From Compostimonas suwonensis (GTDB taxonomy: Bacteria; Actinomycetota; Actinomycetes; Actinomycetales; Microbacteriaceae): a stretch of DNA of 64,000 nt. This document shows, in pieces, positions 3,926 through 62,564 of the stretch. Location of the stretch: positions 372,001 through 436,000 of the forward strand of contig NZ_PGFB01000005.1 in NCBI RefSeq assembly GCF_002797855.1. Reading direction: 5' to 3'. The notes below the pieces were generated by a model that worked only from the letters and a program-made list of their open reading frames with translations, searched no databases and was not told the origin of the DNA. The stretch's first letter is position 1. Each line of letters opens with the position of its first letter. The translations under genes and the position numbers were made by a program.

Positions 3926-5110
3926 ATGCCCGGCTCGCTCATCCTCGACGTGCTGCTCGTGCTCGTGCTGCTCGCCTATCTCGTCTACGGCTTCCGTCTG
4001 GGCTTCATCCGCAGCATCGCCGGCATCGGAGGCCTCGTGGCCGGCGCCGTCGCGGCGATCCTCGCCATCCCGCTCGTCTCGTCGTGGGTGCCGCAGCCGC
4101 AGTGGCGGGTGGCGGCCGTGCTGGCGACCGTGCTCGTGCTCATCGCGGCGGGCAACACCCTGGGCCTGTGGATCGGGCGGCTCATCGGGCGCCCGATCGA
4201 TCGCACCCCCCTGCGGGTCGTCGACCGGATCGTCGGCGCCGTCGCCGCGGTCGTGCTCACCGGCCTGCTGCTCTCGCTCGTCGCGGGCGGCGTGTCATCA
4301 CTCGGCATCCCCGTCGTCACCCAGGCCATCTCCTCCTCCGCCGTCCTGCGCACGATCGACAACCTCACCCCCGACCCGGTCGACTCGCTGCTCGCCCAGA
4401 TCCGTTCCGCGGTCGTCGACGACGGCATCCCGACCATCACGGGGGCGCTCGGCGCGGGGCAGACCCTCGAGATCCCGGATGTCGACACCACGAGCGACGA
4501 GCTGAGCGTCGCCGCCCGCTCGGTCGTGCGGATCACCGGCAACGCCTACGCCTGCGGTCAGGGCCAGGCCGGCAGCGGGGTCGTCATCGCCCCGGAGCGC
4601 GTACTGACGAACGCGCACGTCGTCGCCGGCGTCGACCAGCCGATCGTCGAGACTCCGGGCGACACCGCGCGCCCCGGCGAGATCGTCTACTTCGACCCCG
4701 TCGACGACCTCGCCGTCATCGCCGTGGACGGCCTCGCCGCGAGCCCGCTGCCGTTCACGCCGAACCTCGCCGTCGGTGAGGCGGCCGTCGTCGACGGCTA
4801 CCCCTTCGGCGGGCCGTTCAGCTCGCAGCCGGCCGTCGTCAACGCCGTCGACAGCATCTCGGTGCCCGACATCTACGGCCAGAACCCGTCGCCCCGCCAG
4901 GTCTACGTGCTCTCGGCCGTGGTCGAGCACGGCAACTCGGGCGGGCCCCTGCTCACCGAGGACGGCTCCGTCGTGGGCCTCGTCTTCGCGAAGGACACCG
5001 CTGCGGCGAAGATCGGCTACGCGCTCGCCATGGACGAGCTCACACCCGTCATCGCGCAGGCCCCCGCGCTCAACGCCGCCGTGCCCACGGGCGACTGCAT
5101 CAAGCTCTGA
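3926..5110 (+). CDS. marP: MarP-like membrane-anchored serine protease
   Basis: 394-residue membrane protein with about four N-terminal hydrophobic helices (roughly residues 5-125, CvpA-like) followed by an extracytoplasmic trypsin-like domain. The triad is His231 (TNAHVVAG), Asp260 (FDPVDDLAVI) and Ser338 (GNSGGPL). Cys210 and Cys391 could form a disulfide. Length, triad spacing and the cysteine pair match mycobacterial MarP (about 397 residues), an acid- and oxidant-resistance protease. ATG at 3926 follows AGGAGAG at a proper distance; longer in-frame starts lack this. The function in this organism is inferred from the family. The stop codon lies in the first unit of a tandem repeat. Confidence 0.85.
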   Translation: MPGSLILDVLLVLVLLAYLVYGFRLGFIRSIAGIGGLVAGAVAAILAIPLVSSWVPQPQWRVAAVLATVLVLIAAGNTLGLWIGRLIGRPIDRTPLRVVDRIVGAVAAVVLTGLLLSLVAGGVSSLGIPVVTQAISSSAVLRTIDNLTPDPVDSLLAQIRSAVVDDGIPTITGALGAGQTLEIPDVDTTSDELSVAARSVVRITGNAYACGQGQAGSGVVIAPERVLTNAHVVAGVDQPIVETPGDTARPGEIVYFDPVDDLAVIAVDGLAASPLPFTPNLAVGEAAVVDGYPFGGPFSSQPAVVNAVDSISVPDIYGQNPSPRQVYVLSAVVEHGNSGGPLLTEDGSVVGLVFAKDTAAAKIGYALAMDELTPVIAQAPALNAAVPTGDCIKL

Positions 5111-5204
5111 GCAGGCGGCACGCTCTGAGCAGGCGGCACGCTCTGAGCAGGCGGCACGCTCTGAGCAGGCGGCACGCTCTGAGCAGACGGCACGCTCTGA
5201 GCGG
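5104..5204. repeat. 18-bp minisatellite across the MarP-like stop codon
   Basis: GCTCTGAGCAGGCGGCAC is repeated 5.6 times (starts 5104, 5122, 5140, 5158, 5176 and a partial unit at 5194); the fifth copy has one change. The first unit contains the TGA of the upstream gene and the last ends 6 bp before the stop of the convergent NTF2-like gene. The in-frame stop stays in place whatever the copy number. Confidence 0.9.
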
Positions 5205-6794: not shown

Positions 6795-6865
6795 CTGTCG
6801 CGGCGCACGTTCTTCGTCGGGGCGCACCTTCTACGATGCGCCGTGACGAAGAACGTGCGCCGCGA
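6795..6865. repeat. Palindromic repeat family C, copy 1 (71 bp)
   Basis: Perfect 21-bp inverted arms at 6798-6818 and 6845-6865 (core GCGCACGTTCTTCGTC), with an inner 6-bp stem (6821-6826 with 6837-6842). The whole 71 bp is identical, in the same orientation, to 8012-8082. It begins 3 bp beyond the stop codon of the nuclease-like gene and 22 bp from the lacI start. Confidence 0.95.
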
Positions 6866-6868
6866 AGC

Positions 6869-7984
6869 TCAGCGGTGCGCACGAGGGACGCCTCGTTCGG
6901 CCAGAAAGCGGTGGAAGACGGGCGCGGCGAACGCGACGCTCCACGGCCAGCGGGCGAACGAGGCGTGTGCCGTCGCCCGCAGTTCGTCCTCGCGAAGCTT
7001 CTCGTCCCACACGATGTCACCCGGAGCCCGCGCGTCGGGTCCGTTCGGGCGTTCGTACTTTCCGCGCCCGTCGAACTCGCCGATGATCCGCGGCTCCTCC
7101 CACCAGAAGTCCACGTCGAAGTACGTTCCCCGGGCGTTCGGGAACCGCACCTGAAGCTCGGGGATGACGAAACCGAGCTCGTGCATACGTACTCTGCTCA
7201 GCGATTCGCCCGGGCTGCCCGAACGCGGGTCCGCGAACTCGATGGCACGGCGGGCGAGGCGGCCTCCACGACGGGGGTTCACCACGTCGAGCTCCTCCCT
7301 GAGCGACGATTTCGTGAGGCTCCAACGCCAGGGACCCGATCGGGGCGGGCCGCACGATCGGGCCAGCGATTCTCTGAGCGCATGATCGAGCATGACCACG
7401 GAGGTCAGGAAGCTCGACGTCGTCGCCACATCGACGAGGGTGCGAGCGAGGCTCGTCACCCGTGCTCCGTCGATGCTCTCGGTCGCGGCAGCAACCCGCG
7501 ACCGGTGCACCGTGATCCCGGATCGCGCGGTTCCGCCGGTCGCGCCCGGGTCGTGGGTGTGCACCGCATCGAGACGCGCATCGACGAAAGGCAGCCCGAA
7601 CAGCGCAGCCGCGGAGTGATGCGAGAAGGTCAGTCGGCCACGAGCAGCCTCGGATGCCGCGAGCACACGGATTCGATGGCGGGCACCCGCGCGCAGCCCC
7701 TTCCACCGCTCCCGCGGAAGGTAGAGGCCCCGGTGCACCCTCTGGAGCGTTCCCTCGCGAACGAGCCGGGCGAGCTGATCGGCTCCGACGCCGAGCTCGC
7801 GGAACCTCCGGGCACTGATCAGACCCGCGGCATCCGCGACACCGTCAGCACCGCCCGGGCCGCCCGCATCGCCCGCATCGCCCGCATCGCCGAGAATCTC
7901 ACGAATATCCACGCCCCCATGATCGGCGCAGAAGGACGACCCACGCGCCCGCTTCCCCGGCTCCTGTGCACTCACATCCGGCAT
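6869..7984 (-). CDS. AbiEi-like HTH / PD-(D/E)XK (DUF559, Vsr-like) protein between family C palindromes
   Basis: 371 residues in two parts. The N-terminal part has an AbiEi-antitoxin-like winged helix (LISARRFRELGVGADQLARL, then VHRGLYLPRERW). The C-terminal part is a restriction-nuclease-like domain: SPGES on a helix, an Asp in YFDVDFWWEEP, then EFDGRGKYE, which fits the D...ExD/Q...K layout of Vsr/DUF559 nucleases. The cellular role of this abundant actinobacterial family is unknown. ATG at 7982-7984 lies just after an AGGGTGGG stretch; an upstream in-frame start would fall inside the palindrome and is rejected, and a GTG near DIREILGD is possible. Residues 30-50 are a Gly/Ala/Asp low-complexity linker. 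Identical palindromes sit 3 bp beyond the stop and 27 bp upstream of the start. Confidence 0.8.
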   Translation of the reverse strand: MPDVSAQEPGKRARGSSFCADHGGVDIREILGDAGDAGDAGGPGGADGVADAAGLISARRFRELGVGADQLARLVREGTLQRVHRGLYLPRERWKGLRAGARHRIRVLAASEAARGRLTFSHHSAAALFGLPFVDARLDAVHTHDPGATGGTARSGITVHRSRVAAATESIDGARVTSLARTLVDVATTSSFLTSVVMLDHALRESLARSCGPPRSGPWRWSLTKSSLREELDVVNPRRGGRLARRAIEFADPRSGSPGESLSRVRMHELGFVIPELQVRFPNARGTYFDVDFWWEEPRIIGEFDGRGKYERPNGPDARAPGDIVWDEKLREDELRATAHASFARWPWSVAFAAPVFHRFLAERGVPRAHR

Positions 7985-8011
7985 CCCACCCTGTGCAGGG
8001 CGCACGTCATT

Positions 8012-8082
8012 CTGTCGCGGCGCACGTTCTTCGTCGGGGCGCACCTTCTACGATGCGCCGTGACGAAGAACGTGCGCCGCGA
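8012..8082. repeat. Palindromic repeat family C, copy 2 (71 bp)
   Basis: Identical to 6795-6865, including the asymmetric loop, so the two are direct repeats. Arms are at 8015-8035 and 8062-8082. It lies 12 bp beyond the stop codon of the cyclase-family gene and 27 bp upstream of the nuclease-like start. Confidence 0.95.
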
Positions 8083-21636: not shown

Positions 21637-21645
21637 GCCGCCGAT

Positions 21646-21703
21646 CGCGGCTTTGTTCCCGAGCGCTGGCCACCGGGGCTCGTCGCTCGGGAACAAAGCC
21701 GCG
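21646..21703. repeat. Palindromic repeat family D (58 bp, single copy)
   Basis: Perfect 20-bp arms at 21646-21665 and 21684-21703 (core GGCTTTGTTCCCGAGCG) around an 18-bp spacer. Starts 9 bp after the ABC-F stop codon. Total length equals that of family B cores but the sequence is unrelated. There is no T-tract as expected of an intrinsic terminator. Confidence 0.85.
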
Positions 21704-21754
21704 CTCGACAACAGCACGGAGACCGTGACACGGCACCCGGCATAGGCTCGAGGC

Positions 21755-22573: not shown

Positions 22574-22656
22574 CTCAAAACGACGGAGATACTGCTTCTC
22601 AGAGGCCTTTTGCGCCCAAACGCCGCCCATTCAGCCCAAAAGTCCGTCGTTTTGAG
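22574..22656. repeat. Palindromic repeat family A, copy 3 (83 bp)
   Basis: Arms CTCAAAACGACGGA at 22574-22587 and 22643-22656 with 55 bp between; interior begins GATACTGC. It lies 42 bp past the upstream stop codon. Its right edge (TTGAG) is the first part of the adjoining minisatellite. Confidence 0.95.
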
Positions 22657-33888: not shown

Positions 33889-33926
33889 ACTGCACCCCGG
33901 CGCATGATCGTCTGACGGCACGTCAC

Positions 33927-33966
33927 AGTCCCGCGGGCACGTGGAAAACCAGGTGCCCGCGGGACT
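33927..33966. terminator. Bidirectional terminator between marR and epimerase genes
   Basis: AGTCCCGCGGGCAC (33927-33940) and its complement (33953-33966) form a 14-bp perfect stem with a 12-nt loop. On the plus strand TTT follows. It serves two convergent genes. Confidence 0.8.
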
Positions 33967-33990
33967 TTCGCGTGCAGGGAGGCCGCGGGA

Positions 33991-51818: not shown

Positions 51819-53024
51819 GTGGCAGACGAACTCCCTCGCATCTCCGCGCGCGTAGGCGCGATCGCAGAGTCGGCGACCCTCAAGGTCGACGCGAAGGCCA
51901 AAGCGCTCAAGGCGCAGGGCAAGCAGATCATCTCGTATGCGGCCGGCGAGCCCGACTTCCCCACCCCCGAGCACATCCTGGATGCCGCGGCAGAAGCCGT
52001 GCGCGACCCGAGGAACCACCGCTACACCCCCGCCGCCGGGCTGCCCGAGCTGCGGGAGGCGATCGCCGCCAAGACGCTGCGCGACAGCGGACTCGAGGTA
52101 GCGGCATCCCGGGTCATCGTCACCAACGGCGGCAAGCAGGCCGTCTACCAGGCCTTCCAGACGCTGCTCGACGACGGCGACGAGGTTCTCGTTCCCACGC
52201 CGTACTGGACCACCTACCCCGAGGCGATCAAGCTCGCCGGCGGGGTGCAGGTCGATGTCTTCGCGGGCGCCGACCAGGACTACCTCGTGACGATCGAGCA
52301 GCTCGAGGCCGCGCTCACCCCGCGCAGCAAGGTGCTGCTGTTCGTCTCGCCCTCCAACCCGACCGGCGCCGTCTACTCCCCCGAGCAGACCCGCGCCATC
52401 GGCGAGTGGGCGCTCGAGCGCGGCCTGTGGGTCGTGACCGACGAGATCTACCAGAACCTCACCTACGACGGCGTGCGCGCCCTGTCGATCGTCGAGGCCG
52501 TTCCCGAGCTCGCCGACCGCAGCATCCTGGTCAACGGGGTCGCGAAGACCTACGCGATGACCGGATGGCGCGTGGGATGGATGGTCGGGCCGAGCGACGT
52601 CATCGCCGCCGCCGCCAACCTGCAGTCGCACCTCAGCTCGAACGTCTCGAACGTCTCGCAGCGGGCCGCGATCGCGGCGCTGACGGGCCCGCAGGAGTCG
52701 GCCGAGATCATGCGCGAGGCCTTCGACCGGCGCCGCAAGACGATCGTCGCCGAGCTCAACACGATCCCCGGCGTCGTGACGCCCACCCCGAAGGGCGCGT
52801 TCTACGTGTACCCCGACGTGCGCGGGCTGCTCGGGCGCACCTGGGGCGGCGTGACGCCGACGACCTCGCTCGAGCTCGCCGACCTCATCCTCGACCAGGC
52901 CGAGGTCGCGACCGTGCCCGGAGAGGCCTTCGGCCCCTCCGGCTACCTGCGCCTCTCCTACGCCCTCGGCGACGCCGACCTCCTCGAGGGCGTGCACCGT
53001 CTCCAGCGTCTCTTCCGCGAGTAG
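51819..53024 (+). CDS. Class I/II PLP aminotransferase (aspartate type)
   Basis: 401 residues of fold-type [36 protein letters not shown] Lys in [14 protein letters not shown], and a final Arg in LRLSYAL that binds the substrate carboxylate. Aspartate transaminase (AspC/AspB-like) is most likely. GTG at 51819 is preceded by TATGCT with 7 nt between, favouring a leaderless mRNA; upstream in-frame starts are not needed. The TAG stop lies inside the left arm of a family B palindrome. Confidence 0.92.
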
Positions 53025-53075
53025 ACGCGAATCGGGGGTATTTACGCCGAAACACCCCCGACTCGCGTCCACTCG
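53018..53075. repeat. Palindromic repeat family B, copy 1 (58 bp)
   Basis: 22-bp arms (53018-53039; 53054-53075), consensus GTGGACGCGAATCGGGGG, around a 14-bp spacer; 2 mismatches between arms. One mismatch (A at 53023) makes the TAG stop of the aminotransferase. Confidence 0.93.
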
Positions 53076-53133: not shown

Positions 53134-54069
53134 GTGAACTCACGACAACCACTGCCTCCGCAGCTCCAGGGACGCGCTTTCTCGGTCGGTGAGGCTCTGT
53201 CGCTCGGCGTGCACCCCGACCGGCTGCGAGCAAGCGACCTGGCGAAACCCTTCCACGGCGCACGTCTGCCTGCCGGCGTCGACGGCGGGACCGGGCATCT
53301 CTCCCTCTGTCGCGCCTACCTGCCGGCGCTTCCCCCGAACGGATACTTCAGTCATGCCTCGGCCGCCGCGATCATGGGCATACCTCTTCCTGCGCGAGTG
53401 GCTCGGAGCACCGTCATCCATGTCTCACTTCCGCCTGGTTCACGAGGTGTGCGAACTCGCGATGTGGCCGGCCATGTGCTCGACGCGGGCCCGCACGATC
53501 TGCGGATGTGGGGAGATCTGCCGCTCACCGGACCCGAACGGACCTGGTGCGACCTCGCGGGTGCGCTCTCCCTCCGACAGCTCGTCGCTGCGGGCGACCA
53601 CCTCATCCACCACCGGCAGCCGCTCACGACGCCGCACGAACTGCGTGCCGCCGTCGATCGTTTCGCCGGGCACCGGGGCGTCCGCGCCCTGCGGGCCGCG
53701 CTGCCGCTGCTCAGCGACAGGGCTGAGTCGCCCGCGGAGTCGGAGCTGCGCGTCGTGCTCGCCCTCGCCGGCTTGCCGACGCCGCTGGTCAACCACGAGA
53801 TCCGCACGAGGACGGGTCGGTTCATCGCGCGGGTCGACCTGCTCTTCCCCGAGAACCGCCTCGTGGTCGAGTACCAGGGCGATCATCACCGCACCGATCA
53901 GAAGCAATGGCGGCGTGACCTCGCCCGCGCAGCCGAGCTGGAGTCGGAACGGTACCGCGTGACCGAGGTCACGGCCGACGACCTCCGCTCCGAGCCGGCC
54001 CTGATCGCCCGCATCCGCCGCCTCCTCTCTTTCCCCGTCCCCCTGAGTCGACACGAATCGGGGGTGTAG
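53134..54069 (+). CDS. AbiEi-like HTH / PD-(D/E)XK (DUF559, Vsr-like) protein between family B palindromes
   Basis: 311 residues. N-terminal AbiEi-antitoxin-like helix-turn-helix (FSVGEALSLGVHPDRLRASD, then FHGARLPAG); C-terminal nuclease-like domain with SPAESE (199-204), Asp235 in ARVDLLFPE, and Glu246, Gln248 and His251 in VVEYQGDHHRTDQKQWRRDL, as in DUF559/Vsr-like nucleases. Its biological role is unknown. GTG at 53134, preceded by CATGCT at 6 nt (leaderless-like). The last seven residues, SRHESGV, and the stop are encoded by palindrome B2. Shares its domain layout with the gene at 6869-7984 but not the ExDGxxK detail. Confidence 0.83.
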   Translation: MNSRQPLPPQLQGRAFSVGEALSLGVHPDRLRASDLAKPFHGARLPAGVDGGTGHLSLCRAYLPALPPNGYFSHASAAAIMGIPLPARVARSTVIHVSLPPGSRGVRTRDVAGHVLDAGPHDLRMWGDLPLTGPERTWCDLAGALSLRQLVAAGDHLIHHRQPLTTPHELRAAVDRFAGHRGVRALRAALPLLSDRAESPAESELRVVLALAGLPTPLVNHEIRTRTGRFIARVDLLFPENRLVVEYQGDHHRTDQKQWRRDLARAAELESERYRVTEVTADDLRSEPALIARIRRLLSFPVPLSRHESGV

Positions 54070-54105
54070 AGGCTCCGGAACCCCCGATTCGCGTCCACTC
54101 AGGGG
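54040..54105. repeat. Palindromic repeat family B, copy 2
   Basis: 26-bp arms (54040-54065; 54080-54105) with 2 mismatches and a 14-bp spacer; the 58-bp core is 54044-54101. It contains the 3' end of the upstream nuclease-like gene and lies 84 bp before the ABC gene. Confidence 0.93.
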
Positions 54106-62120: not shown

Positions 62121-62495
62121 ATGACAGACAACACGCCCGACCCGTTCACCGCGGCATCCGCTGCCCCGGCCGGCGGCACCCCGGCATCCGCCGCCTCGAC
62201 CGGCCACGCTCCGACCGGCCAGACTCCGACCGGCCGCATCCCGACCGGCCGCATCCCGACCGGCACCGCCCCAACCGGCACGGCCTCGGTCACCGCCCCG
62301 CAACCCCGCCGCTACCCGGCGCGCATCGGCACGATCATCTGGGGCATGCTGCTGCTCGCCTTCGCCGCCTACATGATCATCACGACGGTCGTGCCGCCCG
62401 TCGCCGACCCCGTCACCCTCATCACGGGCGCCCTCATCGCCGGCGGCCTCGCCCTCGTCATCGTAGGCATCGCCGCCGCCTCCCGCCGCCCCTGA
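62121..62495 (+). CDS. Small membrane protein with PTG-repeat N-terminus
   Basis: 124 residues. A cytoplasmic half of PTGRI/PTGTA repeats encoded by 15-bp units (about 62205-62290), then two membrane helices (IGTIIWGMLLLAFAAYMIIT and ITGALIAGGLALVIVGIAAA). ATG at 62121, ribosome site GAGGAGA, 26 bp after the PspC gene, so they form an operon. I do not recognise the family. The TGA touches palindrome B3. Confidence 0.8.
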   Translation: MTDNTPDPFTAASAAPAGGTPASAASTGHAPTGQTPTGRIPTGRIPTGTAPTGTASVTAPQPRRYPARIGTIIWGMLLLAFAAYMIITTVVPPVADPVTLITGALIAGGLALVIVGIAAASRRP

Positions 62496-62564
62496 TCCCG
62501 CGAGTGGACGCAAATCGGGGGTGTTTCGGTCGAAACACCCCCGATTTGCGTCCACTCGCGGGAT
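62495..62564. repeat. Palindromic repeat family B, copy 3 (perfect 34-bp arms)
   Basis: Arms 62495-62528 and 62531-62564 are exact reverse complements with a 2-bp centre. The 58-bp family core is 62501-62558 (core word GTGGACGCAAATCGGGGG). It is the longest perfect palindrome in the window. It begins at the last base of the upstream TGA and ends 7 bp before the stop of the convergent ABC permease. Confidence 0.95.

Follow-up and report, generated by a model that had tools for sequence, protein, structure and literature searches.

Actinobacterial nuclease genes paired with their own families of dispersed palindromes

The described system closest in layout to the locus analysed here is REP/RAYT, in which a dispersed palindromic repeat flanks an enzyme gene on both sides, each enzyme has a repeat family with which it co-diverges, and the copies are mostly intergenic (PMC2817692). 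RAYTs (TnpA-REP) belong to the HUH/Y1 enzymes, and their substrates are single-stranded REP hairpins that carry a GTAG-type head (PMC2817692, PMC8266576). AbiEi proteins, by comparison, bind inverted repeats as duplex DNA (PMC7319586).

The genes described here share the REP/RAYT layout, with an enzyme gene between two copies of a dispersed palindrome, but differ in enzyme and in repeat. In place of an HUH motif and catalytic tyrosine they encode AbiEi_4 and DUF559 domains and a PD-(D/E)XK fold, and in place of a constant GTAG/GGAG-type head the repeats are ~68-bp palindromes with four half-sites at 19 bp, present in 5-40+ copies. We set these nuclease-palindrome pairs apart as a new kind because REP/RAYT, the nearest by layout, fails on two tested defining features. 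The C-terminal domain resembles those of Vsr/DUF559/MTES_1575 endonucleases; Vsr itself repairs T:G mismatches and its gene lies beside a methylase gene, whereas the genes here are solitary and tied to palindromes. With the AbiEi antitoxins (S. agalactiae AbiEi and M. tuberculosis Rv2827c) the protein shares an N-terminal winged-helix fold by Foldseek, but it continues into a nuclease domain, its repeats are scattered through the genome, and no DUF1814 (AbiEii) toxin gene adjoins nuclease C when the translations of its neighbours are read by eye. Like free-standing homing endonucleases, we find a compact nuclease gene with a likely recognition sequence of its own and with empty orthologous sites; here, however, that sequence recurs in many dispersed intergenic copies and is doubled at the ends of the gene. 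We found no description of such pairs in the open-licence papers searched, and we regard their novelty as provisional.

The family C cassette and its protein

The window, the whole 64-kb stretch of DNA analysed, corresponds to C5:372001-436000 of its own genome (G000; an assembly of 3.88 Mb in 10 contigs). A sequence-only reading of it had proposed that a nuclease-like gene is framed by two 71-bp palindromes of the same sequence in direct orientation, 3 bp past its stop and 27 bp before its start. Sequence, orientation and spacing are all borne out: the two copies (Table 1) are direct repeats with 100% identity, and gaps of 3 bp and 27 bp separate them from the gene. Each copy is a 68-bp palindrome with 29-bp arms, 2 mismatches and a 10-bp loop. 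The neighbouring genes, read from their translations, encode a LacI-type regulator and a cyclase-like protein, with the palindromes between. An 18-bp tandem repeat, GCACGCTCTGAGCAGGCG, lies between two genes at window positions 5101-5202.

Table 1. Nuclease genes and palindromes located in the window.
Feature	Position	Strand	Remarks
Nuclease gene C	6869..7984	-	AbiEi-type winged HTH N-terminus, PD-(D/E)XK (Vsr/DUF559-like) C-terminus; 371 aa, start uncertain
Family C palindrome, past stop codon	6795..6865	.	11-bp half-sites at 6798, 6817 (direct) and 6836, 6855 (inverted); 19-bp period
Family C palindrome, upstream of nuclease C	8012..8082	.	half-sites at 8015, 8034, 8053, 8072
Nuclease gene E	53134..54069	+	311 aa; predicted from paired family E palindromes, then found
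Family E palindrome, left of nuclease E	53018..53075	.	
Family E palindrome, right of nuclease E	54040..54105	.	overlaps ORF end
Solo family E palindrome	62495..62564	.	34-bp perfect arms
Solo family B palindrome	21642..21707	.	its nuclease gene at G000 C3:51295-52152
Solo family A palindrome	33913..33980	.	its nuclease gene at G000 C5:370611-371537

In its own genome the 71-mer matches ~25 places at E < 1e-3, with 100% identity only for the two window copies and 73-91% identity for the remaining 23. The palindrome pair is not a chance arrangement, because the 71-mer recurs at so many places, two of them at 100%; an absence of further genomic copies, which the sequence-only reading had named as part of an outcome that would refute it, did not occur. 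The two copies at the gene have 19/19 spacer bases in common, compared with a mean of 0.52 for copies otherwise, and one of them therefore recently arose from the other, or conversion has made them alike. A pair of solo copies from family C, with 9 kb between them (G000 C2:735058 and C2:744264), shares 95% of its spacer bases, as other copies do not, and is a candidate for a recent copying event.

The gene is annotated with 371 codons, but the alignment of homologues begins only at ~residue 54, which makes the start uncertain; the true one may lie further in, near a GTG at ~7912. The N-terminus matches Pfam AbiEi_4 (2.7e-7), and PADLOC AbiEi models match as well. An AlphaFold model built from an alignment of 18 sequences (pLDDT 83) retrieved S. 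agalactiae AbiEi (6y8q, E 4e-4) and M. tuberculosis Rv2827c (1zel) in Foldseek, and more weakly the R2-retrotransposon endonuclease and Vsr (1vsr). The match table is without residue ranges; from the known folds, we take the AbiEi and Rv2827c matches to belong to the N-terminal part and the R2 and Vsr matches to the C-terminal part. All 18 aligned homologues have the same residues at D292, E303, D305, K309, E328 and K329, as expected for a PD-(D/E)XK active site and a putative nuclease activity, and the active-site residues are kept in all subfamilies. The protein is a predicted nuclease by its restriction-endonuclease-like fold and conserved acidic active site.

Nuclease-specific repeat families in this genome and its relatives

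The genome contains seven detected HTH + PD-(D/E)XK nuclease genes in two subfamilies, and 7/7 are enclosed by matching repeats, each gene by a family of its own. Nuclease C has three paralogues, A (just outside the window), B and D (C4:375744-376616), each with a different repeat family; in family D, one of the two flanking copies has decayed. The second subfamily was reached blind: a palindrome family without a known gene, E, has one pair spaced ~1 kb apart in this genome, and between them lies nuclease E, with a DUF559/MTES_1575-like domain. Its paralogues at C1:535633-536556 (family F) and C1:594139-595020 (family G, repeats read by eye from flank sequence) also sit between matching repeats. 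The C-terminal Vsr/DUF559-like domain is recognised by sequence in the E/F/G subfamily and by a weak fold match in the C subfamily.

Dispersed sites in this genome number 25 for family C, 13 for A, 17 for E and at least 40 for B, the last being a lower bound from 40 scored of 112 candidates. One family B pair with near-identical inner sequence (L271:436-507 and 1503-1574; G000 C1:222935-224073) flanks an NmrA-like NAD(P)-binding gene and no nuclease; it may be a passenger cassette or have arisen by chance. A separate TCCGTCGTTTTGAG-type dispersed repeat, not palindromic by the tests used, has four copies in the window (15326, 19288, 22613 and 58230), and the copy at 22613 merges into a tandem array of 11-bp units.

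In 40 regions, we compared the 350-bp stretches on the two sides of every nuclease gene with each other, did likewise for control ORFs of the same regions, and counted scores > 40 as matches. Matching flanks were found at 34/43 nuclease genes and at 3/213 control ORFs (Fisher p ~1e-30), and with the own genome left out at 30/39 homologues and 3/177 control genes; the repeats at the three positive controls are coding and not palindromic. A named set exceeds the same score at 46 of 52 loci, among them loci from Rhodococcoides, Knoellia and Klenkia; these loci are mostly from Cryobacterium and partly at the same places as in the 40-region set. Cognate palindromes are also dispersed in relatives, with 13 sites in one genome (G111) and 5 in Rhodococcoides kyotonense. 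A gene always present with unrelated flanks, the other outcome named as refuting, was not what we saw, since the flanks are specific to each nuclease. Overall, there is strong support for a nuclease gene that is flanked by a private repeat family and has no transposase inside the ends, and this arrangement is general; at the level of sequence the pairing of each nuclease gene with its own dispersed repeat family is established.

Homologues occur patchily, in 179 of 300 family-level genomes, and the nuclease repertoire changes from genome to genome. At two loci (L171 and L173) the lengths of the nuclease matches are not multiples of three, although the matches still lie between palindromes; these apparent frameshifts suggest old cassettes decaying, or sequencing error.

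Palindrome architecture and a proposed mechanism

The family C unit comprises four 11-bp half-sites, TCGCGGCGCAC, at positions 1, 20, 39 and 58. These half-sites are ~91% alike and the spacers are near random, a pattern equally compatible with long-term selection of binding sites and with recent spread. Pairing within the family C spacers equals the shuffled expectation, with no covariation of pairs. Hairpin recognition as a general rule gains no support in family C and is partly suggested in families A, B and E, where parts of the palindromes carry compensatory changes and hairpins are possible. Comparison of the palindromes with RNA families gave sub-threshold chance matches only.

Across nucleases, the palindromes have a common layout without a common sequence: each arm carries a pair of half-sites in direct orientation at a spacing of exactly 19 bp. 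Among 33 mutually dissimilar palindromes, 15 contain a direct repeat of at least 8/9 bases at an offset of 19, compared with ~1% of shuffled sequences and at most 6% at other offsets. This fixed pitch with changing sequence points to one protein geometry, for which protomers arrayed on duplex DNA would be the simplest account. Rv2827c, which binds four inverted repeats at once, provides a precedent for four half-sites (PMC7319586).

Our preferred reading, to which we assign a probability of roughly 0.5, is that these loci form a large family of nuclease-palindrome pairs in which nuclease-driven copying spreads the palindromes, and sometimes the gene, and keeps the copies alike. We favour such spread or maintenance because of the analogy with REP/RAYT (PMC2817692) and the conserved active site. 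The AbiEi-type winged-helix domain would bind short half-sites, normally four per palindrome, two of them direct at 19 bp and two inverted, and the PD-(D/E)XK domain would nick or cut the DNA at or beside the palindrome. Repair of the cut would then bring a copy of the palindrome to new sites, at times along with a gene enclosed by two of them, and would keep copies alike. Solo palindromes would be non-autonomous repeats, and a gene with two palindromes an autonomous source. That the nuclease spreads or maintains its palindromes is plausible, and we infer that this protein binds the half-sites and cuts, and that repair brings about the spread. Against this reading, a cutter with 25 sites in its own chromosome would have to be tightly restrained; the mostly in-place inheritance of Cryobacterium cassettes and the family B pair around an NmrA-like gene also count against it.

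More tentatively, and with rather less confidence, the pairs could constitute a third bacterial repeat-spreading machinery, in addition to the transposases and the RAYTs. In it, a PD-(D/E)XK nuclease with a winged helix would recognise four half-sites on duplex DNA at a fixed 19-bp pitch, would mobilise its palindromes or make them uniform, and would quickly evolve new specificity, with several private pairs per actinobacterial genome. Our preferred reading offers an origin for the abundant unexplained palindromes of actinobacterial genomes, and gives the large uncharacterised family of AbiEi/DUF559-type nucleases a likely DNA target. Targets can be read from the flanks, giving many protein-site pairs of diverging specificity on one geometry. 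Moreover, as an apparent convergent counterpart of REP/RAYT, the pairs would make models of repeat persistence testable on an unrelated enzyme.

The alternative that survives best, though we consider it unlikely, is that the protein is an AbiEi-like repressor whose upstream palindrome is its operator, with the dispersed copies as selected regulatory or terminator sites and the nuclease domain in a separate role. AbiEi proteins do autoregulate via inverted repeats (PMC7319586), and the half-sites of family C are kept while its spacers drift. Repeats lie on both sides of the gene, however, and equally at the 3' side; the solo copies, mainly intergenic, are mostly near stop codons, and by crude gene calls divergent gaps, the expected place for operators, make up only ~6 of the 60 placed. 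Retention of the active site in every subfamily also argues against this alternative.

Inheritance, empty sites and movement

Palindromes are alike only where their nucleases are more than ~70% identical, and within one locus the left copy resembles the right as closely as copies of close orthologues resemble one another. Nucleases and palindromes co-diverge (Mantel p 0.001, partly through common descent) in a set that took in only loci with matching flanks and left out L236. Within Cryobacterium, cassettes are mostly inherited in place, and three cassette positions are vertically inherited. At one of these, two subtypes of inner sequence occur, each on both flanks together, which is consistent with homogenisation of the flanks. 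The gene is absent from that position in many species, and the junction then contains decayed half-sites, palindromes belonging to other families, or neither; the empty sites L217, L225 and L226 carry no palindrome. An empty counterpart of the lacI/cyclase junction, which the sequence-only reading had proposed looking for, exists in Cryobacterium sp. HLT2-28, where both the gene and the family C palindrome are missing. That junction (L281 ~2040-2140) has an array of TGTCACA-type half-sites, possibly of another family.

The idea of a mobile or homing cassette with its own ends stands in part: the ends do carry the gene's own repeat family, but mobility fares less well, as many Cryobacterium cassettes are inherited in place and the relative orientation of the two ends varies, some loci having direct and others inverted ends. 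This mixture led us to reject simple target-site duplication and, together with the lack of a transposase between the ends, a DNA transposon or IS. Phage or plasmid cargo was likewise rejected, with no phage homologue and four plasmid matches in the homologue search. Spacers shared between flanks hold as a mark of recent insertion for family C and several relatives but not for A, B and E, and are rejected as a general mark. No cassette shows a fresh target-site signature, and palindrome-sized insertions between close Cryobacterium loci are few, mainly extra copies beside existing ones (L151, L149).

Slightly less probable than the repressor is a homing cassette in the strict sense, with a mobile gene whose nuclease cuts a solo palindrome and whose insertion by repair leaves a palindrome on each side, so that solo copies are targets and not products. 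The identical spacers of the two window copies, unlike those of any other pair, and the existence of empty orthologous sites are what this account would predict. It sits poorly with ends that are mutually inverted in many loci, with dispersed copies that outnumber the family's gene 5-40 to 1 and are unfilled, and with empty sites that have no palindrome.

We consider it improbable that the pairs serve the host in genome marking, DNA repair or defence, with palindromes that protect self DNA or position the nuclease. Vertical retention in Cryobacterium, maintained half-sites and the PADLOC AbiEi matches would suit such a role, but the patchy distribution, the genome-to-genome variation in repertoire, the apparent frameshifts, the scarcity of plasmid and phage homologues and the fact that no partner genes were seen for the nuclease genes speak against it. 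Coincidental flanking by ordinary bidirectional terminators, suggested by solo copies that often lie behind stop codons, is refuted as a full account by the control genes of the same regions, by the private repeat family of each nuclease and by the successful blind prediction of nuclease E.

At the orthologous c3 junction of two Cryobacterium loci (L231 and L232; G341/G333), a different gene, DUF368-like by eye, is inserted, and is followed by an array of ACGAGTGCCGCGA half-sites ~31 bp apart.
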